DNA of 53,206 nucleotides from positions 1 through 53,206 of the forward strand of contig JAGCXL010000014.1 in the NCBI GenBank assembly GCA_017961295.1. Direction: 5' to 3'. This DNA is from Elusimicrobiaceae bacterium. GTDB lineage: Bacteria; Elusimicrobiota; Elusimicrobia; Elusimicrobiales; Elusimicrobiaceae. Both the position numbers and the translations under genes were made by a program. This document shows, in pieces, positions 34,108-52,201 of this stretch. How positions within the stretch are numbered: the first letter of the stretch is position 1; every line of letters begins with the position of its first letter. The notes beneath the pieces were generated by a model, which saw only the letters and a list, made by a program, of their open reading frames with translations, searched no databases and was not told the origin of the DNA.

Positions 34108-35217
34108 CTAAAAAGTTTTCACGTGAAAACTTTTATCTAAAATTTGTTGATAAAGCTGTTGATACTGTTGAGCGCTATCTACCTTTTTAGTATTCTTTTT
34201 CAATATATTTTCTTCCATAGATAGCCGTAGCGCTGTATTTTCATATAATTCCGCCAACAGACAACTGATAATCATTTCATCTTGCGGGTTGCAGATAAAA
34301 CCGGTTTTTCCATGTTCTACATATAAAGGCATGTCCCCTACGCGGCTGACAATACAGGGGCGCCCTGCTTGCTGGGCTTCCAGTAAAGAGAGGGGTAAAG
34401 ATTCCTCCCGGGACAGCAATACAAAAACATCTGCCATATTAAGCCAGTCGTTTATGTTTTTTTGAAAACCTACTAAAAAGATATTGTTGGATAGATTTTT
34501 TTCTTTTATAAATTTTTCTAAAGCCGTACGTTCTTCCCCTTCCCCCACTAAAACTAATTTAGCATGCGGACAGTTTGTAAGAATTTTGGAAAAAGCAGTT
34601 AAAAGCATTTTAAAATTTTTAACCGCGGCTAAACGCGCTACACTTAAAAAAATAATATCCTCCGGTAAAAAACTCATTTTTTGGCGCATTTGTTTTTTGA
34701 TAGAATTATCCTTAAAAAATAAGGACTTTTCTACAGAATTGGCTATAAGGGCCGTTTTTTGGGGGGGGTAATGCTGAACATCCCGCAAATAGTTATATGT
34801 GCTAGTGGATTCGGCTGTGCTCACAGTATCTATGCTTTTAAGTGTGCGGTCTAGCCAGCGCATCCATAGCGGTTTTTTGGATAAATCAAAATGGGGGGTG
34901 GTAATTAATTTAATGTTTTGGCCCGCACAAGCTAAACGCGAAAATTCTATCGCACGAAATAACAATGCGTGTACGATATCGGGTTTGAAAGATTCTATTT
35001 CGCGTTTTAATTGAGAAACACATCCTAGGCCTGCACCGGTCATTTCCAAGGACGTAACAGACGCGCCGAGTTGTTGTAAATCCGTCGCCAAAGGGCCGCA
35101 TTTTTTTAAACTCACTACGCGTACGGTGTGACGAGGGGAGAGTGTTTTAACTAAACGAACTAAAGCTGTTTCCGCACCGCCTACGTCGGTGGAAGTGATG
35201 ACGTATAAGAGTTTCAT
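34108..35217 (-). CDS. Glycosyltransferase family 4 protein
   Basis: A 369-residue GT-B enzyme, probably for surface polysaccharide or LPS. The N-terminal acceptor domain starts MKLLYVITSTDVGGAETALVR (glycine-rich GGAE loop); the C-terminal donor domain has LSVARLAAVKNF, LVGEGEER and the EESLPLSLLEAQQAGRPCI region with the E-x7-E pattern. Substrates are unknown. The last codons (FHVKTF and stop) are formed by parS site 3. The -10 TATAAT (35225-35230) lies 7 nt before the ATG and no Shine-Dalgarno is seen, so the mRNA may be leaderless. Confidence 0.9.
   Translation of the reverse strand: MKLLYVITSTDVGGAETALVRLVKTLSPRHTVRVVSLKKCGPLATDLQQLGASVTSLEMTGAGLGCVSQLKREIESFKPDIVHALLFRAIEFSRLACAGQNIKLITTPHFDLSKKPLWMRWLDRTLKSIDTVSTAESTSTYNYLRDVQHYPPQKTALIANSVEKSLFFKDNSIKKQMRQKMSFLPEDIIFLSVARLAAVKNFKMLLTAFSKILTNCPHAKLVLVGEGEERTALEKFIKEKNLSNNIFLVGFQKNINDWLNMADVFVLLSREESLPLSLLEAQQAGRPCIVSRVGDMPLYVEHGKTGFICNPQDEMIISCLLAELYENTALRLSMEENILKKNTKKVDSAQQYQQLYQQILDKSFHVKTF
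34111..34134. promoter_or_regulatory. parS site 3, inside the end of the glycosyltransferase gene
   Basis: The core GTTTTCACGTGAAAAC (34115-34130), with AAAA and TTTT flanks, is identical to sites 1 and 2. It encodes the last residues of the glycosyltransferase, so the site and the protein end evolve under a shared constraint. Confidence 0.9.
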
Positions 35218-35224
35218 TAGGTCT

Positions 35225-35230
35225 ATTATA
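35225..35230 (-). promoter_or_regulatory. -10 box of glycosyltransferase gene (leaderless type)
   Basis: Perfect TATAAT preceded by an extended TGC, 7 nt before the ATG at 35217. The expected transcription start coincides with or is one base from the A of the ATG. Confidence 0.55.
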
Positions 35231-35269
35231 GCAAGTTTTTATTGACGATAAAATATCCACTTGGTAATG

Positions 35270-35310
35270 TAATATAAAAAATAAAACACCCGCTTTGGTA
35301 GCGGGTGTTT
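35270..35310 (-). terminator. Intrinsic terminator after outer-membrane protein gene
   Basis: AAACACCCGCT (35284-35294) pairs with AGCGGGTGTTT (35300-35310); on the minus strand an AT-rich tract with TATTTTTTAT follows. Confidence 0.85.
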
Positions 35311-35329
35311 GTGATTTCTAAAACAATGT

Positions 35330-35950
35330 TTAGAAGTAGAAGCGGCCAGCTAAAGCGGCACCAAAGCCAGAGCGGTCAGACAAGATTTCTCCGTCCTTTT
35401 TCACTTTAGCGGCAATGTTATAGCGGGCATCTAAACCGAGGGCAAATACTTCGGTAAAGCGGTATTCTACACCAGCTACGAGGTGCGGAAATACTCTATT
35501 TTTGGAATCACTATTGTTCCCAAAGAAAGCACCATCGCTTTCTACCTTGGTATGCATAATAGTGACACCAGCACCACCGAACCAAGAGAATCTATTTACA
35601 CCGTTATCGCGTCTGTAATAAACAGTGAAAGGGAAGGCATAGGATTCTTCCGTTACTTTGCCACCGAAAGTTTTGTTTTCGATTTTGTTTTCACCGTAGA
35701 AGTCCAAACCGATTTTGGCACCGAGTTTGTTAGCTTCGTCGTTAAGAGCCCATTCGTGTAAGACTTCCAAGCTCAGGTATCCCGGTGCTTTATCCATTTC
35801 CTTGCTTCCCGGCATAGCATCATAAATGGATTTCATGTCTTTCGGATCGTTTTGACCGGCACCGAGTTTTACGGCAGCACCCCAATCTTTAGCCATTACG
35901 GCCGGGGCGATAAACAATACTGCGAGTACAGCAATTGCTAGTTTTTTCAT
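35330..35950 (-). CDS. Putative outer-membrane beta-barrel protein
   Basis: A 206-residue exported protein. The signal peptide (MKKLAIAVLAVLFIAPAVMA, cut after residue 20) is followed by alternating polar/aromatic strands (for example YAFPFTVYYRRDNG, RFSWFGGAGVTIMHTK, VAGVEYRFTEVFALGLDARYN), ending in a C-terminal Phe (AGRFYF) as many Omp barrels do. It resembles OmpA/OmpW-type small barrels in layout, but no family motif is certain. AAGGAG precedes the ATG. A second protein of the same style is encoded at 40445-41071. Confidence 0.8.
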   Translation of the reverse strand: MKKLAIAVLAVLFIAPAVMAKDWGAAVKLGAGQNDPKDMKSIYDAMPGSKEMDKAPGYLSLEVLHEWALNDEANKLGAKIGLDFYGENKIENKTFGGKVTEESYAFPFTVYYRRDNGVNRFSWFGGAGVTIMHTKVESDGAFFGNNSDSKNRVFPHLVAGVEYRFTEVFALGLDARYNIAAKVKKDGEILSDRSGFGAALAGRFYF

Positions 35951-36057
35951 GTTTTCTCCTTGTGTAAAATAATTGACCCTTATACTTTATAAAACGCTAT
36001 TAAAAAAGGCAAGTGTTTTTTAAGAGAAACAAAAGTACAATGATAAGTAAGGTAAAG

Positions 36058-36089
36058 ATCCCCGACAAAGACACTCGGGGATGACTTTT
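36058..36089 (-). terminator. Hairpin after mgtC-like gene
   Basis: ATCCCCGA (36058-36065) pairs with TCGGGGAT (36075-36082) around a 9-nt loop. The T-run lies on the plus side (CTTTTT), so on the minus strand it is a weaker stop. The form GAT-stem-CAA...-stem-ATGAC is shared with the hairpin at 36781. Confidence 0.45.
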
Positions 36090-36093
36090 TATT

Positions 36094-36726
36094 TTATTGA
36101 AACAGACTGTGGACTTCGGGCATTTCCAAAAGTTCTTTGGTAACCGTTTGAAATTCGTGCGCGGTAAAAGAAGCCACAATGTTGACGTGAAACAGATTTT
36201 CTTGTTTGGTTACTTCACTTTTTAAGATACGAATTTTTTGTTTTTCAATTTGCGTTGTGATTTTTTCGACAACTGCCCAGTGCGGGTCGCAGGTGAGGTA
36301 CAAAGTGTCGTAATGGCGCATTTGTTCTACCCAAATAAGTGCCCGGCGCAAGAAAAGCTGAACAAGCAAGATAGCCGTTGTACAACAAGCGGCCCAAATA
36401 TATTCGCCGTAACCAATCGCCATACCGATAGCGGCCACCAACCATACGCCGGCCGCGGTAGTAAGCCCGGAAATTTTGTTGCCGTCACGCAAGATGGACC
36501 CCGCACCGATGAAACCGACACCCGTTACAATTTGCGCGGCAATACGGCCCGGATCTCCTCCGGCAAGACCCATTACTTGGGATAAAATGGTGAACAGCAT
36601 GGCCCCCAAACAAATCAGGCAGTTGGTGGCAAAGCCGGCGGGTTTGTCGTGATATTGGCGTTCCATTCCGAGCGCGCCGCCGAGGACTAAAGAGAGAAAA
36701 ATTTTAATCAGCATTTCGGTTGTCAT
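36094..36726 (-). CDS. MgtC/SapB family membrane protein
   Basis: A 210-residue inner-membrane protein. It has the MgtC hallmark segments LGGALGMERQ, PAGFATNCLICLGAM, DPGRIAAQIVTGVGFIGAGSILRDG and GLTTAAGVWLVAAIGMAIG across four or five membrane helices (to about 135), then a soluble C-terminal ACT-like domain (about 140-210). Family members influence Mg2+ homeostasis and ATP synthase in pathogens; here the role is unknown. TTGCAT (36756-36761), a 17-nt spacer and TAAGAT (36733-36738) end 6 nt before the ATG, with no ribosome site: likely leaderless. Confidence 0.92.
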   Translation of the reverse strand: MTTEMLIKIFLSLVLGGALGMERQYHDKPAGFATNCLICLGAMLFTILSQVMGLAGGDPGRIAAQIVTGVGFIGAGSILRDGNKISGLTTAAGVWLVAAIGMAIGYGEYIWAACCTTAILLVQLFLRRALIWVEQMRHYDTLYLTCDPHWAVVEKITTQIEKQKIRILKSEVTKQENLFHVNIVASFTAHEFQTVTKELLEMPEVHSLFQ

Positions 36727-36732
36727 ATAAGT

Positions 36733-36761
36733 ATCTTACCAATACCGACGGTAAAATGCAA
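36733..36761 (-). promoter_or_regulatory. Promoter of mgtC-like gene (leaderless type)
   Basis: TTGCAT, a 17-nt spacer, TAAGAT, then ACTTAT and the ATG at 36726. With start 7 nt after the -10, transcription would begin at the A of the ATG. Confidence 0.6.
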
Positions 36762-36780
36762 GAGAAAAAATAAGGAGAAG

Positions 36781-36805
36781 ATGCTGAGCAACGGCGACTC
36801 AGCAT
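36781..36805. repeat. Short hairpin repeat
   Basis: ATGCTGAG (36781-36788) pairs with CTCAGCAT (36798-36805), loop CAACGGCGA. It has the same GAT...CAA...ATGAC frame as the hairpin at 36058 on the other side of mgtC, with a different stem sequence; on the minus strand a late T-run follows. Confidence 0.5.
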
Positions 36806-36882
36806 GACAATAAAAATAGAAAAAGGAAGAGCTCCCGTATAAAAGTATTACGGGATGGCAAATTATGATAACGGCAAATAAT

Positions 36883-36903
36883 AAGGGTGCCAGAGGCACC
36901 CTT
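36883..36903 (-). terminator. Terminator after TPR protein gene
   Basis: AAGGGTGCC (36883-36891) pairs with GGCACCCTT (36895-36903), loop AGA; minus-strand tail ATTATTTGCC. The T content is low, so efficiency is uncertain. Confidence 0.6.
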
Positions 36904-36925
36904 GCTCAGTAAGACTTGCAGAATT

Positions 36926-38119
36926 TTATAATGGAGGAAGCGGACCCACGCCGTCCGCGGGAACCTGATAGGGTTTTTTAGAGTAGCTTTTTGCCAAATC
37001 GTCAAAACCCCATTTGTCTTTAAACGAAAGCACATACTTATACTGCGCTTTGGCTTTTTCGCGCTCACCCAGCACGTCATACACTTGCCCTAAACGCAAG
37101 GCGTTCCATACACCCCAACGGCTGGGCTCTTGGTTTTTGATTTTGTTTTGGCCTTCTTCAAAAAGTTGGCGGGCACGCTCAAAATTTCCTTGTGCCATTT
37201 GTGTAGTTCCTAAGGCGGTGTAGGCACGAGGGATATAAATGTCTTTATAAAATTTATCGGTACCGATAAGTTTTAAAAATTGCTGGGCTTGCGTTGTAAC
37301 ATCCTCGTAATTTTTGGTTTCGTACAAGCAAATAATTTCCACGTAGTGCATCAGCGGATTTTTAGGAAACTTGGCACGGAGTTGGCGGATAAATTCCAAA
37401 GATTTTTCCGGTGCGTAAAAATTACCCAAGCGGTTATTTTGTACTTCAATTAAAATAAGTTTGGCACTATCGGAAGTGAAATGGGCTTTTTCCCGCGCGG
37501 TGTTTAGAAATTTTACACCCTCTTGCGGATCGCCTTTAATGGCTACAATTTTAGCAAGCACTTTAATAACAGAGGGCAGTGTGCCGGCGTAATATTCGTA
37601 AATGCCCAAGCCAAAGTAGGCGTCGTAATAAGTGGGATCTAATTTAAGTGATTTTTCTAAATTGCTAATGGCTTTGCGGCCCGCAAAATACGACGTAATC
37701 CAGTTGCGGTTACGCATATTGAACAGGGCGCGTAGCCCATACAAAGCACCAATCCCCATGTAGCCGTTGGAATCTTGCGGATTTTTTTTGATCCAGCGTT
37801 TAATACCGGAAATAGAATCGTCCAAGATTTTTTCAAAGACTTTACGTTGTGCGTCGTCGCTGGTTTCAAATTCATACTCGTAGCGGCTCCAAGCAATCAT
37901 GGCGTTACCAAAGTGCGCAAAAGGGTGGTCCGGATAGTGTTCAAATACCCAAGCGATATTTTCCTCTGCGGTGTCAAAATCTAAACTATACACACCGTTA
38001 ATACCTACGGTAGCGTGGTGCATGACGTCGGGCGGGAGTGTAAGTTCCGCGCGCGTGGGGAGTATGGTAGCTGTAAGCAAGAAGAATAGCGCTACCCCTA
38101 TGTGCAAAATTTTACGCAT
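36926..38119 (-). CDS. Exported tetratricopeptide-repeat protein
   Basis: A 397-residue protein with a signal peptide (hydrophobic 5-20, cut near TRA-E at 24-25). TPR-like helical pairs follow (for example ISNLEKSLKLDPTYYDAYFGLGIYEYY near 150-176, and AYTALGTTQMAQGNFERARQLFEEG near 312-336). It is probably periplasmic or surface-bound and acts in protein contacts; no enzyme domain is seen. The ATG overlaps the serS stop (TAATG), which implies coupled translation with serS. Confidence 0.8.
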   Translation of the reverse strand: MRKILHIGVALFFLLTATILPTRAELTLPPDVMHHATVGINGVYSLDFDTAEENIAWVFEHYPDHPFAHFGNAMIAWSRYEYEFETSDDAQRKVFEKILDDSISGIKRWIKKNPQDSNGYMGIGALYGLRALFNMRNRNWITSYFAGRKAISNLEKSLKLDPTYYDAYFGLGIYEYYAGTLPSVIKVLAKIVAIKGDPQEGVKFLNTAREKAHFTSDSAKLILIEVQNNRLGNFYAPEKSLEFIRQLRAKFPKNPLMHYVEIICLYETKNYEDVTTQAQQFLKLIGTDKFYKDIYIPRAYTALGTTQMAQGNFERARQLFEEGQNKIKNQEPSRWGVWNALRLGQVYDVLGEREKAKAQYKYVLSFKDKWGFDDLAKSYSKKPYQVPADGVGPLPPL

Positions 38120-39405
38120 TATTTGACCTCAATTTTATCTTTACCAAAGTATGGTACAAGAGCTTTGGGGATACGCACAGAGCCGTCTTTTTGTTGGAAG
38201 TTTTCTAAGATAGCGGCAAAGGTGCGCCCGACGGCAAGGCCGCTGCCGTTAAGGGTGTGGACATATTCCAATTTCCCTTGTGCATTTTTAAAGCGTAATC
38301 CCATGCGGCGGGCTTGAAAATCCAAGCAGTTGGAACAAGAGGAAATTTCGCGGAATTTGTTTTCGCTGGGCATCCAAACCTCAATATCGTACGTTTTGGC
38401 GGACGAAAAACCGATGTCCCCACTGCATAGTTCCACGACGTGGTAAGGAATTTCTAATTGTTTAAGCACATCTTGTGCGTCTAAGACCATTTGCTCGAGC
38501 ATTTGGTAAGAATTTTCGGGCTTAGAAAGCATAACCAGTTCTACTTTGTCAAATTGGTGATTGCGAATTAAACCACGCGTATCTTTGCCGTAAGTGCCGG
38601 ATTCTTTACGAAAACAGGGCGTATAAGCGGTCAGCTTAATGGGGAGTTCTTCTTCGGCCACCGTGCGGGTGCGGTTTAAGTTGGTAAGCGGAATTTCGGC
38701 GGTGGAAACAAGAAATTGTTTTGGCTCGCCGGTTAGTTCGTACATATCTTCGCGGAATTTGGGAAGTTGCCCGGTACCGACTAAAATGTTTTCATTAACG
38801 ATAACAGGGGGCATAATTTCCGTGTAGCCTTTCTTAGCGTGCAAATCCAGCATAAAAGCAATAATGGCACGTTCCAGTCGGGCACCGTCCCCTTTGAAAA
38901 GCGCAAAGCGGCTGCCGGACAATGCGGCGGCAGCCTCAAAATCTAAAATACCTAATTTTTCGCCGACGGCTTGGTGGTCTAAAGGGGTAAAATCAAAATG
39001 CGGAAGAGGGAGGGAACAAGGAACTACTTCGGGGTTGTCTGCATCGCTGGTACCGAAGGGAATTTTTTCGTTTGGCAAGTTAGGGATGCTGAGTAAGAGG
39101 TTATCAATTTCTGCTTTGGCAGGCTCCAGTTCGCCCTCTTTGGCGGTCATTTCTTCTTTGAGTTTTCCCACTTCCTTCATGGCTTCTTGGGCGGCTGCGT
39201 CGCCTTGTTCTTTTTTGATTTTGCCGATAGATTTGGACATTTCGTTGCGTTTGGCACGCAATTCTTCCACGCGGGCTAAAATTTTTTTATAAGCGGTGTA
39301 TTTGGCTAAAACGTCGTCAATTTGAGCGGCCAATTCCGGCTTGCGCAAAGAAAGACGTTTTTTAATTTCTTCGGGGTTTGCAATAATTTGTTTAATGTCC
39401 AACAT
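38119..39405 (-). CDS. serS: Seryl-tRNA synthetase
   Basis: A 428-residue class II synthetase. The N-terminal long coiled coil (about 28-100, Lys/Glu-rich) binds the tRNA-Ser long arm. Class II motif 2 (TPCFRKESGTYGKDTRGLIRNHQFDKVEL) and motif 3 (NGSGLAVGRTFAAILENFQ) are complete, with EISSCSNCLDFQARRM between. GAGG precedes the ATG. The downstream gene overlaps by one base. Confidence 0.97.
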   Translation of the reverse strand: MLDIKQIIANPEEIKKRLSLRKPELAAQIDDVLAKYTAYKKILARVEELRAKRNEMSKSIGKIKKEQGDAAAQEAMKEVGKLKEEMTAKEGELEPAKAEIDNLLLSIPNLPNEKIPFGTSDADNPEVVPCSLPLPHFDFTPLDHQAVGEKLGILDFEAAAALSGSRFALFKGDGARLERAIIAFMLDLHAKKGYTEIMPPVIVNENILVGTGQLPKFREDMYELTGEPKQFLVSTAEIPLTNLNRTRTVAEEELPIKLTAYTPCFRKESGTYGKDTRGLIRNHQFDKVELVMLSKPENSYQMLEQMVLDAQDVLKQLEIPYHVVELCSGDIGFSSAKTYDIEVWMPSENKFREISSCSNCLDFQARRMGLRFKNAQGKLEYVHTLNGSGLAVGRTFAAILENFQQKDGSVRIPKALVPYFGKDKIEVK

Positions 39406-39415
39406 AAAGACCTCT

Positions 39416-39655
39416 TTATTTAGTGTTTAAATCTATTACGTACGGCTCCGGAAATAAGTGGCGGTACGGCTTAAATGTGGAGACAGCATATTCCATAGCG
39501 TAAGTTGTCAGCAAATTTACACTTACCGGGGCTACGCGGCTTTGCCCGGCAATCAAAACAATTACCAGTACCACAAAACCAGCCAAAATAGCTTTAAAAA
39601 AAGCAAAGAACATCCCAAAAGTTACCGAGATAGAATCTTCAGAAAGAGTTCTCAT
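39416..39655 (-). CDS. Small single-pass membrane protein
   Basis: A 79-residue protein of unknown function. A hydrophobic stretch (about 12-37, FGMFFAFFKAILAGFVVLVIVLIA) is followed by a short, probably periplasmic tail with two Tyr and several Pro. The ATG at 39655 overlaps the stop of the upstream CsgG-like gene by 4 bp (ATGA), so it is translationally coupled and likely works with it. A longer frame reaching into that gene is rejected. Confidence 0.7.
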   Translation of the reverse strand: MRTLSEDSISVTFGMFFAFFKAILAGFVVLVIVLIAGQSRVAPVSVNLLTTYAMEYAVSTFKPYRHLFPEPYVIDLNTK

Positions 39656-40326
39656 TTCCGTTTCTCCCGTTTGGATAATTCTTTGGTAAAACTTTTGACC
39701 AGTTGGCGGGCCATGTAATCTGCCGCGTCCAGCGCGCGGGAACTTTCCTGACTGTCCGAGCCGATCCACACAATTTCTGCCGTTTCAACATCCACCAGTT
39801 TAGCAATTAAAGCTACTTTGGCATTAATGGTATACTCAGTGGGGCGAACATCTACGGAGTTAGAAACTTGGGTGCCCACCGGGCGTTGGTAACCTACGTA
39901 GGTGCCGTCCGGCATGCGCATTACGTCTTGGCGCATAATGGGTTGCGATTCTGTACGGCGTGAGGAGGTAAGGGCAAGCTCGGTACGGGCGGGCGTATAA
40001 GAACTAACCTCGCCGATTAAGAGGACATCTACCCCTAAAATACGGCCGATTTCGCGCGTAGTATCTGGGGATAAATAGCCGGAAACGGAAATGTTGTGTT
40101 CCCGCAAAACGCTTTCCAATTGCGCGCGCTCTACGACCTTAAAACCATTGCGGATTAAATATTTGGCAAACAAGTTTTCTACCCCGTTTAAGTCCGCCCA
40201 CGAGTTGGAAAACGCCATAATCCCAATGCGGTTAATTTGGCTAAAATCGTAACTGGGACTGAGCACCGTTTTGGGCGCACAAGCCAAGAATAGAAAAGCT
40301 ACGAAAAAAGCGGCATATCTCCTCAT
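39652..40326 (-). CDS. CsgG/HfaB-like lipoprotein
   Basis: A 224-residue lipoprotein: signal with lipobox LFLAC (Cys16), then a CsgG-type region IGIMAFSNSW, NGFKVVERAQLESVLREHN, TREIGRILGVDVLLIGEVSSY and, after a variable loop, AKVALIAKLVDVETAEIVWIGSDSQESS. CsgG forms outer-membrane secretion channels for curli; relatives without curli genes may have other export roles, and no curli genes are seen here. The start at 40326 has no ribosome site, but a TATAAT (40333-40338) ends 6 nt before it, suggesting a leaderless mRNA. A TTG at 40392 would give a poorer signal. Confidence 0.75.
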   Translation of the reverse strand: MRRYAAFFVAFLFLACAPKTVLSPSYDFSQINRIGIMAFSNSWADLNGVENLFAKYLIRNGFKVVERAQLESVLREHNISVSGYLSPDTTREIGRILGVDVLLIGEVSSYTPARTELALTSSRRTESQPIMRQDVMRMPDGTYVGYQRPVGTQVSNSVDVRPTEYTINAKVALIAKLVDVETAEIVWIGSDSQESSRALDAADYMARQLVKSFTKELSKREKRK

Positions 40327-40332
40327 ACTAGT

Positions 40333-40338
40333 ATTATA
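40333..40338 (-). promoter_or_regulatory. -10 box of CsgG-like gene (leaderless type)
   Basis: Perfect TATAAT, then six bases, then ATG at 40326. A -35 match at the usual distance is weak (TGCCGC). Confidence 0.5.
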
Positions 40339-40385
40339 TAATTTTTGCAAGGAGTGCGGCAGAACAAGCCGTGGGTTTAAATCTA

Positions 40386-40414
40386 TTGCCAAATGAAAAG
40401 AAAATTTTTACAAT
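40386..40414 (+). promoter_or_regulatory. Promoter of outer-membrane protein gene
   Basis: TTGCCA (40386-40391), a 17-nt spacer and TACAAT (40409-40414), about 30 nt before the ATG. Confidence 0.65.
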
Positions 40415-40444
40415 ATAGGTATCTTACGTAGCACAAGGAGAATT

Positions 40445-41071: not shown

Positions 41072-41092
41072 AGCCCCGGTTGTGATTTTAGT

Positions 41093-41123
41093 AAATAGGC
41101 CCCGCTTGAAGCGGGGCCTATTT
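41093..41123. terminator. Bidirectional terminator-like hairpin
   Basis: AAATAGGCCCCGCT (41093-41106) pairs with AGCGGGGCCTATTT (41110-41123), loop TGA. It separates the converging outer-membrane and TPR protein genes. T tails are short on both sides. Confidence 0.75.
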
Positions 41124-41140
41124 GCGTAATAGAATCAAAT

Positions 41141-42496: not shown

Positions 42497-43268
42497 ATAA
42501 CACCATTTGTATTTTTTCAAATCGGGTCAGTTTAACGGTTTTTGTAAACGTAAAGTCCGCTCTCTCTATTTTAGCAAGATTTTTTTGGTACGTGTAGCCC
42601 ATTACGCGGCAGGGCAATATTTGGGTGGGCCAAAAAGACTGCATTTGCTTAAACGCGAGTGCATATCTTTCTTGTGCGCGGGCGGCCGTTTGCCGCAAAA
42701 GTTGTTGCACCTGGTCTGCGTGGGTGCCTGCTAAAATTTCTTGCGCGGTAAGCGTGCAAGGCAAGTATACGCGGCCCAAACGAGCGTCGTCATATACGTC
42801 GCGCACGATGTTGGTAAGTTGCGCCGCTTGCCCTAAAGACAAAGCCAACGCATCCGCTTGCGGGCCTTTTACGCCTAAAATATCAAGCGTAGCTTGCCCG
42901 ACAATTACGGCCACGCGGTACAAATACCACTCCAATTCTTCAAAAGTGGCGTAACGTTTTTTTTCTAAATCGGCCTGCATGCCTTCTAACAAAAGAGTGA
43001 AACGGTCTTTGGAGATTTGAAAATCTTGCACGTCTTGCCGGAGTACTTGCCCTAAATCCGTTTTGGGAACACCCGCATAAATGAAGTCAATTTCTTGCGC
43101 TAAAGACTTTAATTCCTCTTGAGGGTTTGTGCGGCTGGGTTCATCGGCAATGTCATCGGCCAAACGACAAAACGCATAATAATCCGCCAGGGCGCGTCGT
43201 TTTCTTTTTTTCAAAAAGAAAAAAGCGGGGCCAAAGCTGGATTTTTTATACGTTTGAGGTTGGTTCAT
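42471..43268 (-). CDS. Squalene/phytoene synthase family protein
   Basis: A 265-residue prenyl-prenyl transferase. The first aspartate-rich motif is YAFCRLADDIAD (31-42), the second NIVRDVYDDARLGRVYLP (153-170, Asp157 and Asp161); the N-terminal SSFGPAFFFL helix is typical. It would join two prenyl diphosphates head to head, giving presqualene/squalene or phytoene, but no later carotenoid or hopanoid gene is in view. The ATG at 43268 overlaps the stop of the pantothenate kinase gene (TAATG). A frame extending to 43454 lies inside that gene and is rejected. Confidence 0.88.
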   Translation of the reverse strand: MNQPQTYKKSSFGPAFFFLKKRKRRALADYYAFCRLADDIADEPSRTNPQEELKSLAQEIDFIYAGVPKTDLGQVLRQDVQDFQISKDRFTLLLEGMQADLEKKRYATFEELEWYLYRVAVIVGQATLDILGVKGPQADALALSLGQAAQLTNIVRDVYDDARLGRVYLPCTLTAQEILAGTHADQVQQLLRQTAARAQERYALAFKQMQSFWPTQILPCRVMGYTYQKNLAKIERADFTFTKTVKLTRFEKIQMVLYALIKTLF

Positions 43269-44104
43269 TAGCGCGGATCCTTTTTGTGCAGATAAGACAG
43301 CGCTGCCCCAGTGGCGGTAGCGTAGAGCGCATTTTTGGGGATAATAAAGTTGATTCCATGCATTTGGTGCAGCATTTGGAAAGTTTGTTTGGCTAACGGC
43401 ACTTGCGAGAGAGTGCCCGTTAAAATAACATCTTTCATTTGCTCGTTGCGGCAAGCAAAAACAGCCATCATACCTACCGTTTGGAACACCATATTGAGCA
43501 CACCGGCGGCTAAATCGGCCGGAACAAGACCGTCTTCCATTTTGCCGAAGTTAGAGGCGGTAATATCTTTAGTTAAGTTTGAAATGGCTTTACTGGAGAT
43601 ATCTCCAATGTTTAAATCTACTTTATTTAGGCGGCCTTTTTCAGCCAAATTTACAACGGTACGGAACGATTTTATTCCGCAGAGTTGATTGCATAAACCT
43701 ACTACGGTTCCACCGCCTACGCCGGACCCGCCGATATGGAAAATACCTTTCTTTCCGGCGCGTACAAAAGCGGTTCCGGTGCCCATACTCACAATAAGGC
43801 CTTCTTCTTTTTTGGAAAGTGCCAGCCCACCTAAACCAATGGCTTTAAATTCGTCCACCGTTGAGGCCGGAACACTATAAACTTTCTTTTTAAATTGGGC
43901 TGCACCTACGCCGGTTAAAATAATTTGTCGAACGGCACTAAGAGACAAATTATTTTCGTTAATAAATTTGCCCAGAGCACCATATGCGGAAGTTTGCGGA
44001 TCAGCCGCTTCCACTTTGAGCATGCCAATCAATTTTGCCTGGTCTGTGTAACCTACAATTTTGGTGGTGGAACCGCCCACGTCAATCCCGATAATTACGC
44101 TCAT
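43268..44104 (-). CDS. coaW: Type II pantothenate kinase
   Basis: A 278-residue ASKHA-fold kinase phosphorylating pantothenate in CoA synthesis. The phosphate-1 motif GIDVGGSTTKIVGY (5-18), a glycine-rich MGTGTAFV (106-113) and GGSGVGGGTVVGL (124-136) match eukaryotic and staphylococcal PanK-II enzymes. BadF/BcrA-type activators share the fold but have iron-sulfur cysteines not seen here. Four-base overlap (ATGA) with the upstream M3 peptidase gene and one-base overlap with the downstream synthase gene make one operon. Confidence 0.85.
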   Translation of the reverse strand: MSVIIGIDVGGSTTKIVGYTDQAKLIGMLKVEAADPQTSAYGALGKFINENNLSLSAVRQIILTGVGAAQFKKKVYSVPASTVDEFKAIGLGGLALSKKEEGLIVSMGTGTAFVRAGKKGIFHIGGSGVGGGTVVGLCNQLCGIKSFRTVVNLAEKGRLNKVDLNIGDISSKAISNLTKDITASNFGKMEDGLVPADLAAGVLNMVFQTVGMMAVFACRNEQMKDVILTGTLSQVPLAKQTFQMLHQMHGINFIIPKNALYATATGAALSYLHKKDPR

Positions 44105-46146
44105 TTTTCCTCCAAGCCAATCGCTTTTAAGAACGGCCCGTTTTGTGCCGGGCGGCCCAAGAAATTTTCAACCAGTTTTTCCTCGTCTTCACTGCCGCCT
44201 TTTTCCAAAATTTCGCGGCGGAATTTAAGACCAATTTGCGGATTAAAAATACCGTTTTGTTCAAACTGGCTAAAGAAATCTTCCGCGATGACTTCCGACC
44301 ATAAATACCCATAATAGCCGGCATCATACCCACCCATGATGTGCCCAAACGCAGCTTGCGGATATGTGTTTTTGGTAAGAGGTAATGCACGGATTTTTTT
44401 GGTTAAATCAAAGTAAACTTTAGTGGTGTCCGGCGTTTTGGGGGCGGTGTGAAGCGTCATATCGTACTGGGCAAAAAAGTTTTGCCGCAAGTACGTGCCG
44501 CCATTGCCGAAATTTTTGGCAGCCAGCATACGCTTAATTAAATCGTCCGGTAACGGTTCACCCGTTTTATAGTGCTTGCTGATTTTTTTAAGCACGGTGG
44601 GGTCCCACGCCCAGCGTTCAAGCATTTGGCTGGGAGCTTCCACAAAATCCCAACTTACGCTCGTACCGCTGAAGGCTTTGTATTTGGATTTGGTAAGTGC
44701 GTTGTGCAGGACATGTCCAAATTCGTGAAAGAGTGTTTCCACTTCGCCGTGTTTGAGTAGAGAAGGCGTATCTTGGGACGGTTTGTTCATGTTCGCTACG
44801 ATGGCTACAAACGGCATTTGATAGGAACCATCGTCTTTTTCAAATCCTTCCACGAGATCAAAACACGCGGCGTGTTTATATTTGCCTTCGCGCGGGTAGA
44901 GGTCCATGTAAAAGTATGCTACCGGGGCGGAAGACTTTTTGTCTTTAATTAAAAAAGCTTTGACGTCCGGGTGCCAGGTGGGGATATTGACGGGCTCAAA
45001 AGTAATACCAAAGACATTGCCGAAAATTTCCAACATGCCGTCAATAACAACTTGAGAGGGGAAATACTCTTTGATTTTTTCGCTGTCTAACTGTAAGTTT
45101 TCTTTGCGGTATTTGTTGGCCCAGTAACCTGATTCGTACGGATAAATGGTGCGGGATTTTTTGCCACTTTTTTCGTTTTTGTAAGCAATTAAGAATTTGT
45201 CCTCTTTTTTGCCCATGGGTTTTAGTTTCTTTTGCAAATCTTTTAAAAACGTCATGACGGTTTTGGGGTTTTTAGCCATGCGGTTTTCTAACTTCAAATC
45301 TGCGTGTGTGGGGTACCCTAACAGCTGTGCAATTTGGCGGCGCAGCGTGAGCGTTTTTTCCAAAAGTTCTACGTTTTTTTCGCCGCCGCGGCGGTTGTAT
45401 TTAAATTCCAATTCTTTGCGTGCTTGCTCGTCATCAGCATTTAACATAAAGGGGACATAGTCCGGGTAATCGAGCGTAACCAAATAGTTGCCGTTTTCGG
45501 TTTTTTGTAATTTGCCGATATAATCTTCCCCCAGCCCTTGGAGTTGTTCGCGCGTGACAGTTAGCGGGTCTTTATATTCTTGGATATTTTTGTCGTACTC
45601 AATAACGTATTGCGCTTCTTCTTTGTTTAGCGCTTTAAATTTTTCCAAGTCTTCGTCGTTTAAGTCCATACCGCTGTGCTTAAAACCGATGAGCATTTCT
45701 TTGACAAGTTTAGCTTCCACAGGGCCTAGTTGGGGATTGGTATCGGTATATTCTTTAATGGCTTTGTAGACGTCGCGCCGGGTGGCTACGTCCACCATGT
45801 ACTGGCTGATTTGCAGTTGCAAATCACGCGCGGTATCGCGAAATTTCTGGTCGGTAGATACGTAAGAAAGGAAACCGCTCATTCCCAAAGCATCACCGTA
45901 TTTATCAAAGGCTTTTTCATAACCTAGGATGGTATTTTCAAAGGTGCGTTCTTGCGCCGGGATTGCAATTAAGGCGGCAAGGTCTTTTTCTAATTGTTGG
46001 CGGGCAGCTTGTTCGGCGGGGGCCAGGTCCTCGGCTTTGTAATTAAAGTGCAGGACACCGTCCTTAGTAAACATATTTGGCATAGCAAAAACTCCCGTGG
46101 TTAAAAATAAAAAAATAAAAAAAAGGATCGTCTTGTTTCTCTTCAT
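44101..46146 (-). CDS. Exported M3 family metallopeptidase (Dcp/oligopeptidase A-like)
   Basis: A 681-residue zinc peptidase. The signal peptide MKRNKTILFFIFLFL...FAM is followed by the M3 fold; zinc motif HEFGHVLHNAL (His-Glu-x-x-His) and the downstream Glu in WDFVEAPSQMLERW are intact. Substrates would be short peptides in the periplasm, in the manner of dipeptidyl carboxypeptidase. ATG 46146 has no ribosome site, but an extended -10 TGCTATCAT (46153-46161) ends 6 nt before it, so a leaderless mRNA is likely. First gene of an operon with coaW, the prenyl synthase and a TPR protein. Confidence 0.9.
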   Translation of the reverse strand: MKRNKTILFFIFLFLTTGVFAMPNMFTKDGVLHFNYKAEDLAPAEQAARQQLEKDLAALIAIPAQERTFENTILGYEKAFDKYGDALGMSGFLSYVSTDQKFRDTARDLQLQISQYMVDVATRRDVYKAIKEYTDTNPQLGPVEAKLVKEMLIGFKHSGMDLNDEDLEKFKALNKEEAQYVIEYDKNIQEYKDPLTVTREQLQGLGEDYIGKLQKTENGNYLVTLDYPDYVPFMLNADDEQARKELEFKYNRRGGEKNVELLEKTLTLRRQIAQLLGYPTHADLKLENRMAKNPKTVMTFLKDLQKKLKPMGKKEDKFLIAYKNEKSGKKSRTIYPYESGYWANKYRKENLQLDSEKIKEYFPSQVVIDGMLEIFGNVFGITFEPVNIPTWHPDVKAFLIKDKKSSAPVAYFYMDLYPREGKYKHAACFDLVEGFEKDDGSYQMPFVAIVANMNKPSQDTPSLLKHGEVETLFHEFGHVLHNALTKSKYKAFSGTSVSWDFVEAPSQMLERWAWDPTVLKKISKHYKTGEPLPDDLIKRMLAAKNFGNGGTYLRQNFFAQYDMTLHTAPKTPDTTKVYFDLTKKIRALPLTKNTYPQAAFGHIMGGYDAGYYGYLWSEVIAEDFFSQFEQNGIFNPQIGLKFRREILEKGGSEDEEKLVENFLGRPAQNGPFLKAIGLEEK

Positions 46147-46152
46147 ACGTAT

Positions 46153-46158
46153 ATGATA
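46153..46158 (-). promoter_or_regulatory. -10 box of M3 peptidase operon (leaderless type)
   Basis: TATCAT with an extended TGC, six bases before ATG 46146. No convincing -35 hexamer. Confidence 0.5.
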
Positions 46159-46182
46159 GCATTTCTGCAGGGAAAATACCCA

Positions 46183-46209
46183 TTTACAAACCCCCACATT
46201 TGTTATAAT
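46183..46209 (+). promoter_or_regulatory. Putative promoter of arginine decarboxylase gene
   Basis: TTTACA (46183-46188), a 15-nt spacer and TATAAT (46204-46209), 34 nt before the ATG, which has its own CAAGGAG ribosome site. Confidence 0.5.
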
Positions 46210-46243
46210 ATATACATACTTATCTTACACCAAGGAGTGTGCA

Positions 46244-46795
46244 ATGTACGAAGCATTTGTACCCAAAGAGATCTTTTTAACCAAAGGGATCGGCCGTCAT
46301 AAAGAAAAACTCGCGAGCTTTGAAGAAGCGTTGCGTGATGCCAAAATTGCCAGCTTTAACTTAGTGCCTGTTTCCAGTATTTTTCCGCCCGGTTGCAAAA
46401 TTGTGCCGGTGGAAAAGGGTCTTAAAAAACTAAATGCCGGTCAAATTTTGCACTGCGTGATTAGCCGCAACACCAGCAACGAATACCGCCGCATGATTGC
46501 CGCTTCCGTCGGTGTAGCAATTCCCAAAGACCGTACGCACCATGGTTATTTGTCCGAGCATCACTCCTTTGGTGAAACCGACAAACAAGCCGGCGATTAT
46601 GCCGAAGATTTGGCCGCTTTAATGTTATCCACCACCTTGGGTGTGGACTTTGATAACGATACTACGTGGGACCAAAAAGAAGAAATTTGGAAGATGAGTG
46701 GCAAAATTGTGCGCACTTCCAACGTAACCCAATCTGCGGTATGCGCTAACGGGGTATGGACCACCGTTATTGCCGCTGCGGTATTTGTACAGTAG
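46244..46795 (+). CDS. Pyruvoyl-dependent arginine decarboxylase
   Basis: A 183-residue proenzyme that turns arginine into agmatine with a covalent pyruvoyl group. It is expected to cut itself between Ser44 and Ser45 in [11 protein letters not shown], the second Ser becoming pyruvoyl on the beta chain. The conserved [12 protein letters not shown] (103-114) and GKGRH-like GIGRHK N-terminal region match the PvlArgDC family (archaea, Chlamydia and scattered bacteria). The agmatinase gene starts 8 bp later, so the pair makes putrescine and urea from arginine. Confidence 0.94.
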
Positions 46796-46803
46796 GATTT
46801 TTT

Positions 46804-47676: not shown

Positions 47677-47704
47677 CGCCGGCTTGATAAAGTTGCGTTT
47701 TTGT

Positions 47705-47741
47705 AACAACCTTCGGTATAACCGGGGGTTGTTGCTTTTTT
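47705..47741 (+). terminator. Intrinsic terminator after speB
   Basis: AACAACC (47705-47711) pairs with GGTTGTT (47727-47733), with an inner CGGT/ACCG helix; GCTTTTTT follows. Confidence 0.85.
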
Positions 47742-47765
47742 GGAAAAGTTTTTGATTAAAAAAGG

Positions 47766-47801
47766 CAAGCGCCTAAAAGCGCTTGACTTGTTTTTTTTTT
47801 T
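47766..47801 (+). terminator. Second hairpin with 11-T tract (terminator and/or promoter spacer)
   Basis: CAAGCGC (47766-47772) pairs with GCGCTTG (47779-47785), followed by ACTTG and eleven Ts (47791-47801). It can back up the speB terminator. The same Ts lie between TTGACT (47783-47788) and TACGAT (47804-47809), the likely promoter of the prepilin-like gene. Confidence 0.5.
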
Positions 47802-47812
47802 GCTACGATACT
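47783..47812 (+). promoter_or_regulatory. Promoter of prepilin-like gene with poly-T spacer
   Basis: TTGACT, a 15-nt spacer made mostly of a T11 tract, and TACGAT with extended TGC; GATACT (47807-47812) gives an 18-nt spacer instead. Changes in tract length would alter the spacing and so the promoter strength. Confidence 0.45.
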
Positions 47813-47840
47813 ACTATACGACGAAGACCTGAGAAATGTT

Positions 47841-48365
47841 ATGTTAAGTAAAGGACAAGGTTTTACTTTGATTGAGTTGTTGATCGTAGTGTTAATTATC
47901 ACTGTTTTGGTGGCGGTAGCTGTGCCGCAATATCAAAAAGCAGTGATTAAAAGCCGGATATTTGGCTATATGCCTTTTGTTAAAAGTTTGGTGCAGGCGC
48001 AAGAAGCCTATTATTTGGCAAACGGGCGGTATGCAACGTATTTTGAAGATTTAGATGTGGATTTCCCGAAGAGCTGTAAACTACAAGACAATAAATACAA
48101 GAATATGATTTATTGCAATGACTCAATAATTATAGACAATGGTATGGCTTATAGCCTACCAATAGGAGATATTGCTATTAAATATTGCCCGAAAGGAGCT
48201 TCCTTGCGTGAGGATTGCAGTAATAAGAGGAGGCTTGTAATCAGATTTTATCTTCGACATGCAGACGCAGAAAGTATGCAAGGAAAAATGCGTTGTGAGT
48301 CCCCGGCAGACAATTTGGCAAAGCAAATTTGTGATGCTTTTAATGCGCAGTATCGAAAAAATTAA
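47841..48365 (+). CDS. Type IV prepilin-like protein (type II secretion/pilin N-terminal motif)
   Basis: A 174-residue protein. The leader MLSKGQG is cut before F8 in [14 protein letters not shown], leaving the standard N-methylated hydrophobic helix with Glu at position 5; [11 protein letters not shown] closes the helix. The soluble domain has [20 protein letters not shown] and six Cys that could form disulfides. No assembly ATPase or prepilin peptidase gene is nearby, as often seen for dispersed pilin genes in Elusimicrobiota. The ribosome site is weak. The end overlaps the convergent ligA stop by 4 bp. Confidence 0.9.
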
Positions 48366-50347
48366 TTTTTGCCAATCAGTTTTAAAAATTCTTCTTCGGT
48401 CATGACCGGTATGCCCAACTCTTGCGCTTTGCGTAATTTGCTGCCGGCATTTTCTCCGGCTACTACAAAAGAGGTTTTTTTGGATACGCTCCCGCTGGCG
48501 TAACCGCCGTATTGTTTGGCCAATAATTCGGCCTCGGTGCGTTTTAGTTGTTGTAATTCCCCAGTAAAAACAATGGTTTTTCCTTCCAAGATATTGCCGG
48601 AAAGTTCTTTTTTGGGTTGCGTGAAATTAACGCCTGCCTGCCGCAACAGTTCCAGCTGTTCACACACTTTTGGATCCCGGAAGAAATCATAGACGCTTTG
48701 AGAAACGGTCTCGCCGATTTCACGCAAAGATTGTAATTCTTCTAAACCGGCGGCTTTAAGGGCGTCTAACGTGCGGAATTTATCGGCTAAAATTTCGGCT
48801 GTTTTTTCACCCACAAACGTAATGCCGAGGGCATACAGCAATTTGGAAAGCGGTTTGTGTTTGCTTTCTTCAATGGCATCCAAAAGGTTTTGTGCTTTTT
48901 TGTCTTTGAAATTTTCCAAATTTAATACATGAAAAAAGGTCAGGTGGTAAATGTCGGCAAAGTCTGTTAAAAATTGGCGTTCTAAAAGTTGGTCCATGAC
49001 CACATCCCCTAGTCCGTCAATATCCATGGCGTTGCGGGAAGCAAAATGGAGTAAACGCGCGCGCAGTTGTGCCGGGCAGGAAGGGTTTACACAATAATAA
49101 CCTACTGTGTCGGCCTCTTTATAAATGTGCCCGCCACAGGCCGGGCAAGTGGTAGGGGGAAGGATATCTTGCGTGCCTTTTTGCTCTACTACCTTTACGA
49201 TTTTGGGGATTACTTCTCCGGCGCGTTCTACAATGACTGTGTCCCCTACGCGCACGTTTAAGCGTTTGATTTCGTCAAAATTATGTAAGGTGGCATTAGA
49301 AATGGTCACGCCACCGATAGCAACAGGTTCTAACTCCGCCACCGGAGTAACAATGCCCGAGCGGCCCACCGAAAATATTACGTTCTTAAGTGTAGTAGTG
49401 GCTTGCGGTGCCGGGTACTTAAAGGCAATGGCCCAGCGCGGGCTTTTGGCGGTAGCGCCTAAAATTTGTTGCTCTTTAAAGGAGTTTACTTTGACTACCA
49501 AACCGTCCACGTCAAAAGGGAGTTGGTGGCGCGACTCATTAAACTTATCATAAAACGTAATAATATCTTCTATGTTTGTGGTTTTAGTGCGTACCGGGCC
49601 GACGGAAAAACCCCAACTTTTGCATAAGTCAATAAATCCGCTAAAGCTGTCTGCCGCTACATCCCCCGTACCGAACGAGTGCGCAAAAAATTTAAGAGGA
49701 CGTTGAGCTACTACCTCTGTATTTTTGTGACGTAAAAAACCTGCCGCTGCGTTGCGCGTGTTGGCAAAGGTATTTTCGTTTTTTGCTTGCTGAATTTTAT
49801 TAAGCGCATCCAAATCTTTTTTATCCAAGTAAACTTCACCACGGATTTCTAACCGGCCTTGCGGGGCGTTGCCCTGTAACGTGTGCGGGATACTTTTAAT
49901 GGTGCGTACGTTGGCGGTGATATCTTCACCTACTTTGCCGTCTCCGCGGCTGGCTGCTAAAACCAGTTTGCCGTTTTCATACGTTAAAGAACAGGAAACT
50001 CCGTCAATTTTAGCTTCCAACACCATTTCAAAGCTATGGGTTTGCAAAATTTTGGCGGTGCGTTCGTGCCAGGCGCGGATATCGTCGGCATTATACGAAT
50101 TATCCAAAGACATCATGGGTACTGCGTGCGTAATTTGCGTGAACGATTTGCTGGCCTTGCCACCCACACGTTGGGTGGGGGAATTTTTAGTGCGAAATTG
50201 GGGGTAAGCGTCTTCCAGGTCTTTTAGACGGCGGTAAAGCTCATCGTACTGAGTGTCCGACAAGATAGGGGCGTCCAAATTGTAATACAAATTGTTGTGA
50301 TAATTGATTTGCTTTTTGAGCGCTTCAATTTCGTCCTTTGGGTGCAT
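48362..50347 (-). CDS. ligA: NAD-dependent DNA ligase LigA
   Basis: A 661-residue replication and repair ligase. The nucleotide-binding domain has AMP-accepting Lys113 in [20 protein letters not shown] and LEIRGEVY; the OB fold, the four-Cys zinc finger (CPACGGHIY ... CVNPSCPAQ), helix-hairpin-helix repeats and a C-terminal BRCT domain (about 588-661) are complete. It follows nusB by 9 bp on the same strand. Confidence 0.97.
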
Positions 50348-50356
50348 AAGAAACCC

Positions 50357-50767
50357 CTATTTTTTGCGTTCTTTTTTGAGTTGATCCAAAAGCCCGTTAA
50401 TAAATTTGCCGGAATTTTCGGTTGAGAATTTTTTGGCTAGTTCAATAGCTTCGTCGATAATAGCGGGGATGGGAGTTTTTTGCGGGCTAAAAATCATTTC
50501 ATAAGTGGCCATACGCAAAATGGAGCGGTCCACTGCGGACATACGGGAAATCGTCCAATTTTTGGCATAGGCAGAAACAAGAGCGTCTATTTGGGCCAAA
50601 TGTGCGGCGGTGCCGTGTACAAGTTCTTCACAAAACGGGAAACACTCTGCCAATTCCCCTTTAAATTGGGCCATATAGGCGGCGGTTACTTCGGGCGCCA
50701 GGTTGGCGCTGTCGGCGTAATAAAGCGATTGCAAGGCACATTCGCGTGCTTGTCTGCGGTTGCTCAT
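50357..50767 (-). CDS. nusB: Transcription antitermination factor NusB
   Basis: A 136-residue all-helical RNA-binding protein acting with NusE on rRNA operon boxA. It shows the N-terminal RRQARECALQSLYYAD, the middle VSAYAKNWTISRMSAVDRSILRMATYEM and the end IPAIIDEAIELAKKFSTENSGKFINGLLD of the family. ATG 50767 has AAGGGG upstream; an in-frame start at 50830 does not. First gene before ligA. Confidence 0.96.
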   Translation of the reverse strand: MSNRRQARECALQSLYYADSANLAPEVTAAYMAQFKGELAECFPFCEELVHGTAAHLAQIDALVSAYAKNWTISRMSAVDRSILRMATYEMIFSPQKTPIPAIIDEAIELAKKFSTENSGKFINGLLDQLKKERKK

Positions 50768-50869
50768 AAGTCCCCTTAAAATTGTAAAAGAAGTTACTTT
50801 TATTCTATCAAATTTTGTGCAGGGGTGCACTTCTTATTTGGGGTAAAAGAACTAATTAATTTTTGTACT

Positions 50870-50897
50870 TTGAAAATGAAAGTTGCTTTGTTAGGAT
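50870..50897 (+). promoter_or_regulatory. Putative promoter of DUF2807-like gene
   Basis: TTGAAA (50870-50875), a 16-nt spacer and TAGGAT (50892-50897), 22 nt before the start. Confidence 0.5.
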
Positions 50898-50919
50898 ATT
50901 TTCACACAAGGAGGGAACT

Positions 50920-51711
50920 ATGATGAAAAAATGGATAGTATTTTTGACGTTTGTGGCCCTGGGTATGGCATTAGCCGGCGTAGCCCGGGCAGAAACGGTC
51001 CGCGGCGAAGGACGGTATATGGAACAACAAATAACCGACTTAATGCCTTTTCATGCGATTGATGTGCGCGGCGATGCGCATGTAGATATTTGGCAACAGG
51101 GGAAACAAAGTGTGCGTGTAAGCGGAAAACAAAATTTAGTGGCTTTGGCTAATTTGCATGTAGAAGATCAAACGCTGATTATTGAGTTTAAACGTCCAAT
51201 ACACATCAAAGGAGCACATGCATTACAAGTGACGGTTACGATACCGGAATTGACAACACTTTCTGTGCATAGTGACGGCAGAGCCCGTATCCGGGGGCCG
51301 TTTGAGGTGAAAAATTTGTCGCTAACTGCGGCAGATAAAGCCGAGATTGACGGAGATTCTATCAAGGCAAAACTACTGCGGTTGCAAGTAATGAATAAAG
51401 CCGATATTGACTTGGAACGGATACAGGTAAAAAAATTGGAAGCGGCCAACTTTGACCGGGGAAATCTTGAACTTTCCGGGCATGCCGAAGAGGCGCGACT
51501 CACCAATAACGGGCATGACGATATAGATGCCGCAGACTTGCGTATCAATAGCGCGCAGGTGGCGGTCAATGCCAGGGGTGACGTGGAAGTGTTTGTCATG
51601 CACTCTTTAAAAGCACAGGCTAACGGGAGTGGCAAAATTACTTACCACGGACAGCCCACGTTAACACGCGGCGGAAATATGAAGAAAATTCAGCCTGCGT
51701 TTGATGATTAA
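50920..51711 (+). CDS. Exported GIN-domain (DUF2807-like) beta-helix protein
   Basis: A 263-residue protein. The signal peptide (MMKKWIVFLTFVALGMALAGVARA, cut before ETV) is followed by FHAIDVRGDAHVDIWQQGKQSVRVSG, the usual start of DUF2807 domains, then repeating short strands with a Gly/Asp/Asn turn pattern (for example LTTLSVHSDGRARIRG, LRLQVMNKADIDLER, ARLTNNGHDDIDA, QVAVNARGDVEVFV), as in a right-handed beta-helix. Family function is uncertain; adhesion or a surface role is proposed. AAGGAGG precedes ATG 50920 by 5 nt (ATG 50923 is equally possible). Confidence 0.8.
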   Translation: MMKKWIVFLTFVALGMALAGVARAETVRGEGRYMEQQITDLMPFHAIDVRGDAHVDIWQQGKQSVRVSGKQNLVALANLHVEDQTLIIEFKRPIHIKGAHALQVTVTIPELTTLSVHSDGRARIRGPFEVKNLSLTAADKAEIDGDSIKAKLLRLQVMNKADIDLERIQVKKLEAANFDRGNLELSGHAEEARLTNNGHDDIDAADLRINSAQVAVNARGDVEVFVMHSLKAQANGSGKITYHGQPTLTRGGNMKKIQPAFDD

Positions 51712-51722
51712 GCAGAAAATTA

Positions 51723-51747
51723 GCCCCCGAAAGGGGGCCTTTTCTTA
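51723..51747 (+). terminator. Intrinsic terminator
   Basis: GCCCCC (51723-51728) pairs with GGGGGC (51733-51738) around GAAA, followed by CTTTTCTTAG. It ends the GIN-domain gene and directly abuts the next promoter. Confidence 0.85.
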
Positions 51748-51748
51748 G

Positions 51749-51754
51749 TATAAT
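51749..51754 (+). promoter_or_regulatory. -10 box of short exported-protein gene (leaderless type)
   Basis: Perfect TATAAT, then six bases, then ATG 51761; a second overlapping TATAAT (51754-51759) is too near the start to serve. The -35 would fall inside the preceding terminator hairpin. Confidence 0.5.
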
Positions 51755-51760
51755 ATAATT

Positions 51761-52201
51761 ATGAAAAAACTGATCTTATTACTGGTAGCACTTGTTTTGT
51801 TGGTAGTATTAGTGATTGTATATATTCCGTTCACGCCTTCTCAAACAGCTGAGCCCAGAGTAGGCGCGGACCGCGATGCGCATAGCTGCATTGCTTCGGC
51901 CGGATACACATATAGCGCGGTGCGTGGGGAGTGCATCCGTTTGTGGGAAGCGGGAACGGCATTGTTCCCGGTCATCCAAGTGGAAGAGCCGGTGCTTGCG
52001 GCGTATGTAGTGCAAAGTGAAAACGGGCGTGAGGCGGAAGTTTTTTTGCCCGGCTTTGAACAAGGGCTGTTGATGAACCAAGCCGAAGATGCGGATGTGC
52101 CCACTTGGACGGCTAACGGTTGGACGCTTACCTATGACCCGGACCAAGGGTGGAAACTCTTTCAAGACGGCGAGGAAGTGTATACCAGCAAAGCACAATA
52201 A
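51761..52201 (+). CDS. Hypothetical membrane-anchored protein
   Basis: A 146-residue protein of unknown family. An N-terminal hydrophobic helix (about 4-23, LILLLVALVLLVVLVIVYIP) without a clear cleavage site suggests a membrane anchor with a periplasmic domain. That domain has a Cys pair in HSCIASAGYTYSAVRGEC (42-59) that could form a disulfide and a beta-rich tail (AYVVQSENGREAEVFLPG, WTLTYDPDQGWKL). No ribosome site precedes the ATG; a -10 box 6 nt upstream suggests a leaderless mRNA. Confidence 0.7.
   Translation: MKKLILLLVALVLLVVLVIVYIPFTPSQTAEPRVGADRDAHSCIASAGYTYSAVRGECIRLWEAGTALFPVIQVEEPVLAAYVVQSENGREAEVFLPGFEQGLLMNQAEDADVPTWTANGWTLTYDPDQGWKLFQDGEEVYTSKAQ

Follow-up and report, generated by a model that had tools for sequence, protein, structure and literature searches.

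The 53,206-bp contig analysed here (contig C36, hereafter the window) belongs to an Elusimicrobiaceae metagenome assembly (897,454 bases, 38 contigs, 66.65% complete) and raises a simple question: how are genes expressed whose −10 promoter box lies immediately before the start codon and which lack a ribosome-binding site? Five genes of the window were described in this way in a preliminary description based on the DNA sequence. Direct reading of the sequence bore out the box and its spacing at all five starts, with six bases (N6) between box and ATG in four cases and seven (N7) in one, and a Shine-Dalgarno (SD) motif is visible before none of them, as had been stated (Table 1). We consider it highly probable (about 90%), from sequence evidence, that these genes are leaderless, that is, that their promoters yield transcripts starting on the AUG or one base before it. 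The leaderless-like class in this genome exceeds the five window genes.

Table 1. Start regions of the five window genes and of the hairpin beside one of them
Feature	Coordinates	Strand	ATG	Spacer	−10 box	Other
Glycosyltransferase gene	34108..35217	−	35215-35217	35218-35224 (N7)	TATAAT 35225-35230	TGC before box; Pfam match
MgtC gene	36094..36726	−	36724-36726	36727-36732 (N6)	TAAGAT 36733-36738	−35 TTGCAT 36756-36761, 17-nt box spacing; Pfam match
CsgG-domain lipoprotein-like gene	39652..40326	−	40324-40326	40327-40332 (N6)	TATAAT 40333-40338	Pfam CsgG match
M3 peptidase gene	44101..46146	−	46144-46146	46147-46152 (N6)	TATCAT 46153-46158	TGC before box; Pfam Peptidase_M3 match
Short protein gene	51761..52201	+	51761-51763	51755-51760 (N6)	TATAAT 51749-51754	Hydrophobic N-terminus
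Terminator-like hairpin	51723-51738, T-rich tail to 51748	+				Adjoins −10 box of the 51761 gene on its upstream side

That this spacing is commoner than chance genome-wide was a check set beforehand, and the N6 counts exceeded the controls. The spacing k between exact TATAAT and ATG was counted in a sample of 451,206 bases, made up of the window and 20 other stretches of its own genome. Sixteen matches were found at k = 6 and 12 at k = 7, compared to 1-7 at each of the 24 other spacings between 0 and 25. An open reading frame (ORF) of at least 80 amino acids followed in 14 of the 16 matches at k = 6 and 5 of the 12 at k = 7, and in 0-3 per spacing elsewhere. The same picture emerged from the 367 genes that a home-made caller predicted in the sample: a near-consensus box, defined as a −10 box within one mismatch of TATAAT before an in-frame candidate ATG, occurred at N6 in 32 genes and at N7 in 7, the 29 other spacings from 0 to 30 giving a mean of 4.4 and a maximum of 9. 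Exact TATAAT preceded the called genes at N6 in 15 cases and at N7 in 4 (0-3 at other spacings), and even the loose form TANNNT reached 42 genes at N6 compared to 6-21 at other spacings from 0 to 30. The N6 excess thus amounts to about 28 of the 367 genes, or roughly 8%. Before GTG or TTG candidates of the same gene set, no near-consensus box was found at N6, and the four cases of TANNNT are within background.

Across the whole genome of origin, TATAAT-N6-ATG matched 36 times, compared to 8 matches of the reversed pattern and 11 at N11. The reversed pattern is an imperfect control, and because TATAAT followed by GTA is itself frequent at some spacings, N11 was added as a second one. Among 30 of these 36 matches that were checked, 26 open ORFs of at least 80 amino acids, 18 of them with a short upstream extension. 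Pooling spacings 2-16 gave only 182 matches compared to 143 for the reversed pattern; the excess is therefore confined to N6 and N7. For several further comparisons within the gene set, the 32 genes with a near-consensus box at N6 and those with exact TATAAT at N7 were combined into a leaderless-like set of 36 genes.

The arrangement is also retained among relatives. Matches to the four window genes other than the M3 peptidase gene were found in 61, 61, 61 and 47 of 61 genomes of the genus, and the best 30 loci of each family were compared. The M3 peptidase gave 37 loci in named genomes, several from rumen, colon or rectum samples; 36 of them are assigned to Elusimicrobium, Elusimicrobiaceae, Elusimicrobiales or Elusimicrobia, and 36 of the 37 contained the start. 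Scoring a −10-like TA...T box with up to two mismatches, we found it at N6 in 30/30 loci of the CsgG-like family, 27/30 of the short protein, 26/30 of MgtC, 29/36 of the M3 peptidase and 18/30 of the glycosyltransferase, which has it at N7 in a further 11/30. An SD-like motif preceded the candidate ATG in 3 of the 156 loci, one each in the CsgG-like, MgtC and M3 families and none in the glycosyltransferase and short-protein families. The N6 box is retained in all five families while much of the upstream region differs, and at protein identities that fall to 48% in the glycosyltransferase family and to 34% in that of the short protein, for which no Pfam match was obtained; the genomes are related, so that these counts are not independent events.

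Neighbouring genes served as controls. The SD-led gene at 43268 beside the M3 peptidase gene, which we take to code for a BadF-like ATPase, has an N6 box at 0/36 loci and an SD motif at 34/36. The leadered gene at 46244, divergent from the M3 peptidase gene and presumably coding for an arginine-decarboxylase-like protein, has an N6 box at 0/33 loci; it scored an SD motif in only 1/33, its purine-rich motif, read by eye, lying mostly upstream of the search window, and was used solely as a control for absence of the N6 box. Two further neighbours, presumably TPR-like and Omp-like, held their starts in only 3/60 and 8/60 loci; neither showed an N6 box, and they were left out of the argument.

The preliminary description further proposed that two modes of initiation coexist in this DNA. 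No SD motif precedes any of the 36 leaderless-like starts. Over the gene set as a whole, candidate starts show an AGGAG peak at a distance of 5-8 nt upstream, and an SD-like start was scored for 190 of the 331 genes outside the leaderless-like set, so that both modes coexist, the SD-led genes being the larger class in this genome. A published table gives the anti-SD sequence of Elusimicrobia and Endomicrobia as CCUCCUUU (PMC10783764). The proposal is well supported by the sequence, in which the fixed spacing, the ortholog footprint, the lack of an SD motif and the position at the head of transcription units point to a putative leaderless mode side by side with the SD-led one. A suggested bias toward exported or membrane proteins found no clear support: a hydrophobic N-terminus is predicted for 16/36 leaderless-like genes compared to 102/331 others (P = 0.13, Fisher's test).

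Features that played no part in selecting the leaderless-like genes were compared as well. Their upstream neighbour is divergent in 20/34 cases, compared to 24/177 for SD-led genes (P = 8×10−8) and 27/134 for genes with neither signal, and the median gap to a codirectional neighbour is 129.5 bp, compared to 14 bp and 3 bp, respectively. Judged from this gene layout, leaderless-like genes tend to head transcription units. The TG of an extended −10 element, one base before the box, is common though not universal, occurring at 14/32 N6 starts compared to 6% per site in the upstream background. The terminator-like hairpin seen immediately before the box at 51761 has few counterparts and is no general feature (2/32 N6 starts compared to 4/190 SD-led starts). 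A −35 box was considered as a defining feature and dropped, its signal being only weak. The base at position −1 is T in 33/36 leaderless-like starts compared to 107/175 SD-led ATG starts (P = 2×10−4), 71/114 starts with neither signal and 28% of ATGs overall; because T is the commonest base at SD-led starts too, it was downgraded from a proof of where transcription starts to partial support.

We propose that a sigma-70-type promoter is placed by the start codon in these genes, with a −10 box often accompanied by an upstream TG and sometimes by a −35 box. Counted from the −10 box, transcription usually starts at the seventh base downstream, which would be the A of the ATG at N6 and the base before the ATG at N7; the mRNA would accordingly begin with AUG or AAUG. 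The claim that transcription begins on the ATG fits the geometry of the four N6 genes, in which the canonical +1 position would coincide with the A of the start codon; for the glycosyltransferase gene the canonical start would be the A that precedes it. Initiation would proceed without SD pairing, presumably by binding of a 70S ribosome or a 30S-fMet-tRNA complex to the 5′-terminal AUG; translation from a 5′ AUG rests on established work on leaderless mRNAs. About 8% of the genes, roughly one in thirteen, would use this mode, mainly at the heads of transcription units. We infer where the transcripts begin, which sigma factor is used and how the ribosome engages, the start of transcription on the ATG following from geometry and conservation.

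Several observations weigh against this explanation. With the loosest box, TANNNT before any ATG, raw sequence gives no N6 peak (190 compared to 150-260 at other spacings); the peak emerges only with the fuller box or at gene starts. Some 5 of the 36 leaderless-like genes are expected by chance, and the genes themselves come from a home-made caller. Only a weak −35 signal is seen, a TTGACA-like hexamer with at least 4/6 matches lying 16-18 nt upstream of the −10 box in 8/32 N6 starts compared to 1-5/32 at control spacings. T at −1 is the commonest base not only at SD-led starts (61%) but also in 90/126 ATGs that have a −10-like box at other spacings. Among the orthologs, the N6 box is missing from 4/30 MgtC, 3/30 short-protein, 7/36 M3 and 12/30 glycosyltransferase loci (11/30 of the last having N7). 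Two-mismatch matches also gather at other spacings: 10 at k = 0 for CsgG, 16 at k = 0 and 10 at k = 3 for M3, 15 at k = 11 for MgtC and 13 at k = 9 for the glycosyltransferase. These off-N6 matches stem partly from overlapping AT-rich words.

The alternative that fares best, although we regard it as improbable, is that the −10 box is indeed the promoter and that the transcript begins 1-4 nt ahead of the ATG, producing a leader too tiny for an SD motif. A scatter of one or two bases is usual for start points, and N7 cases exist, namely the window glycosyltransferase and 11/30 of its orthologs. However, the other families are sharply N6, in which the A of the ATG is the base where transcription would usually begin, and genes with so short a leader would functionally form nearly the same class as leaderless ones.

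Still less probable is a reading of the box as an AT-rich, unstructured or S1-binding element close to the start codon, in mRNAs begun farther upstream at another promoter. An AT bias upstream of non-SD genes can stem from S1 sites and not only from leaderless promoters (PMC5397173), and AT-rich words do overlap the region. Such an element would account poorly for a fixed 6-nt spacing, Pribnow-specific letters, the TG element and a position at the heads of transcription units, and at 51761 the terminator-like hairpin, which abuts the box and ends at it, argues against a longer transcript. That the five starts are chance AT-rich matches chosen by eye, TATAAT-like words being common in a genome of 45% GC and loose TANNNT lacking the N6 peak in raw sequence, is refuted as a general account and has next to no probability, given the N6 peak in genome counts, at gene starts and in five ortholog sets, although single genes among the 36 may be chance matches.

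The range of the candidate leaderless starts was estimated by comparing N6 and N11 counts of TATAAT-ATG in 247 Elusimicrobiota genomes. N6 exceeded N11 in 47/47 genomes of the genus (including the genome of origin; totals 2221:504), 18/18 of the rest of the family (970:377), 34/35 of the rest of the order (1787:958) and 40/42 of the rest of the class (983:365), that is, in 139/142 genomes of class Elusimicrobia as a whole. Outside the class this excess was not seen (N6 above N11 in 47/105 genomes, totals 4335:4432). Restriction to class Elusimicrobia was considered, and is weakened by convincing starts in G137, the one outside-class genome examined, in which 21/30 matches open ORFs of at least 80 amino acids, several with convincing N-termini. 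In another genome, the class relative G189, the −1 base is C in 22/30 matches; 29/30 open ORFs of at least 80 amino acids, and in 16 cases the frame stays open for fewer than 40 codons upstream, though the spacers in these matches have a high GC content, and a genome that is GC-rich overall would by itself make long chance ORFs more frequent.

At one locus (L079 and L273, G000:C14:20796-20823) two predicted leaderless starts stand back to back on a single palindromic −10 box in the layout CAT-N6-ATTATATAAT-N6-ATG. The 22 bp between the two ATGs separate genes for a 305-amino-acid protein, which we take to be an Era-like GTPase, and a 206-amino-acid protein whose N-terminus is signal-like. Promoters active in both directions are in themselves known already. 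The exact palindromic layout was found at 7 sites in 6 of the 247 Elusimicrobiota genomes and the reversed control at none; ORFs of at least 150 amino acids lie on both sides at 5 of the 7 sites and not at the other 2. Leaderless initiation may be an old, conserved second mode of class Elusimicrobia, kept gene by gene across deep divergence, with some loci squeezed to a shared palindromic −10 box that would force the polymerase to choose between two genes; we put this forward tentatively, as an idea that we rather doubt than favour.

Starts of this kind are known elsewhere. Zheng et al. (2011, PMC3160421) described TA-led leaderless genes from many bacterial groups, their TA-type box lying about 12 bp ahead of the start codon. 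The genes reported here share with them TANNNT or TATAAT about 12 bp upstream, coexistence with SD-led genes and a TG peak, the last seen there in some low-GC genomes; the groups listed in the section consulted do not name Elusimicrobiota and include one unclassified genome. Experiments in Deinococcus-Thermus showed that a −10 box lying just a few bases ahead of the ORF is a promoter giving leaderless mRNA and has a spacing requirement (PMC12340547). The −10 box adjoining the ORF at fixed spacing is the common feature, read here from the sequence; about 30% of ORFs and the motif TANNNT are concerned there, compared to about 8% and a fuller TATAAT with frequent TG here. Cappable-seq attributed 10% of start sites in Akkermansia muciniphila and 15% in Bifidobacterium pseudolongum to leaderless transcripts (PMC4782308), a share similar in scale to ours, although start sites were measured there and are inferred here. 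The string 'elusimicrob' is absent from the main texts of PMC3160421, PMC12340547, PMC5397173 and PMC4782308, and no earlier report of leaderless genes in Elusimicrobiota was found in the open-licence papers searched, supplements lying outside the scope of that search. The kind of gene start described here is known already; we see it in a lineage that has received little study, where relatives conserve it. It points to a sizeable class of leaderless genes in a gut lineage that is mostly uncultured, and it provides a defined, conserved gene set with which initiation at a 5′-AUG could be tested in a new lineage.

A −10 box at N6 before an ATG could also serve as a simple rule for better annotation of starts. 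The ATGs of the CsgG-like and M3 genes sit inside longer ORFs opened by TTG or GTG, and in both genes it is the inner ATG that opens a signal-peptide-like N-terminus; the longest ORFs begin too early. At nine M3 loci (L038, L039, L041, L042, L050, L052, L056, L063 and L067) the −10 box is directly followed by an in-frame ATG, with the predicted leaderless ATG six bases later, and automatic annotation may pick the first of the two. Six other M3 orthologs (L060, L061, L062, L064, L066 and L071) carry the element GTGTAACA farther upstream and have no clear N6 box; this group has perhaps shifted from a leaderless start to a short leader. In the window itself, the 97-bp region between the M3 peptidase gene and its divergent neighbour (46147-46243) seems to hold both modes: the M3 side looks leaderless, and the 46244 side has TATAAT about 34 nt before its ATG together with AGGAG.

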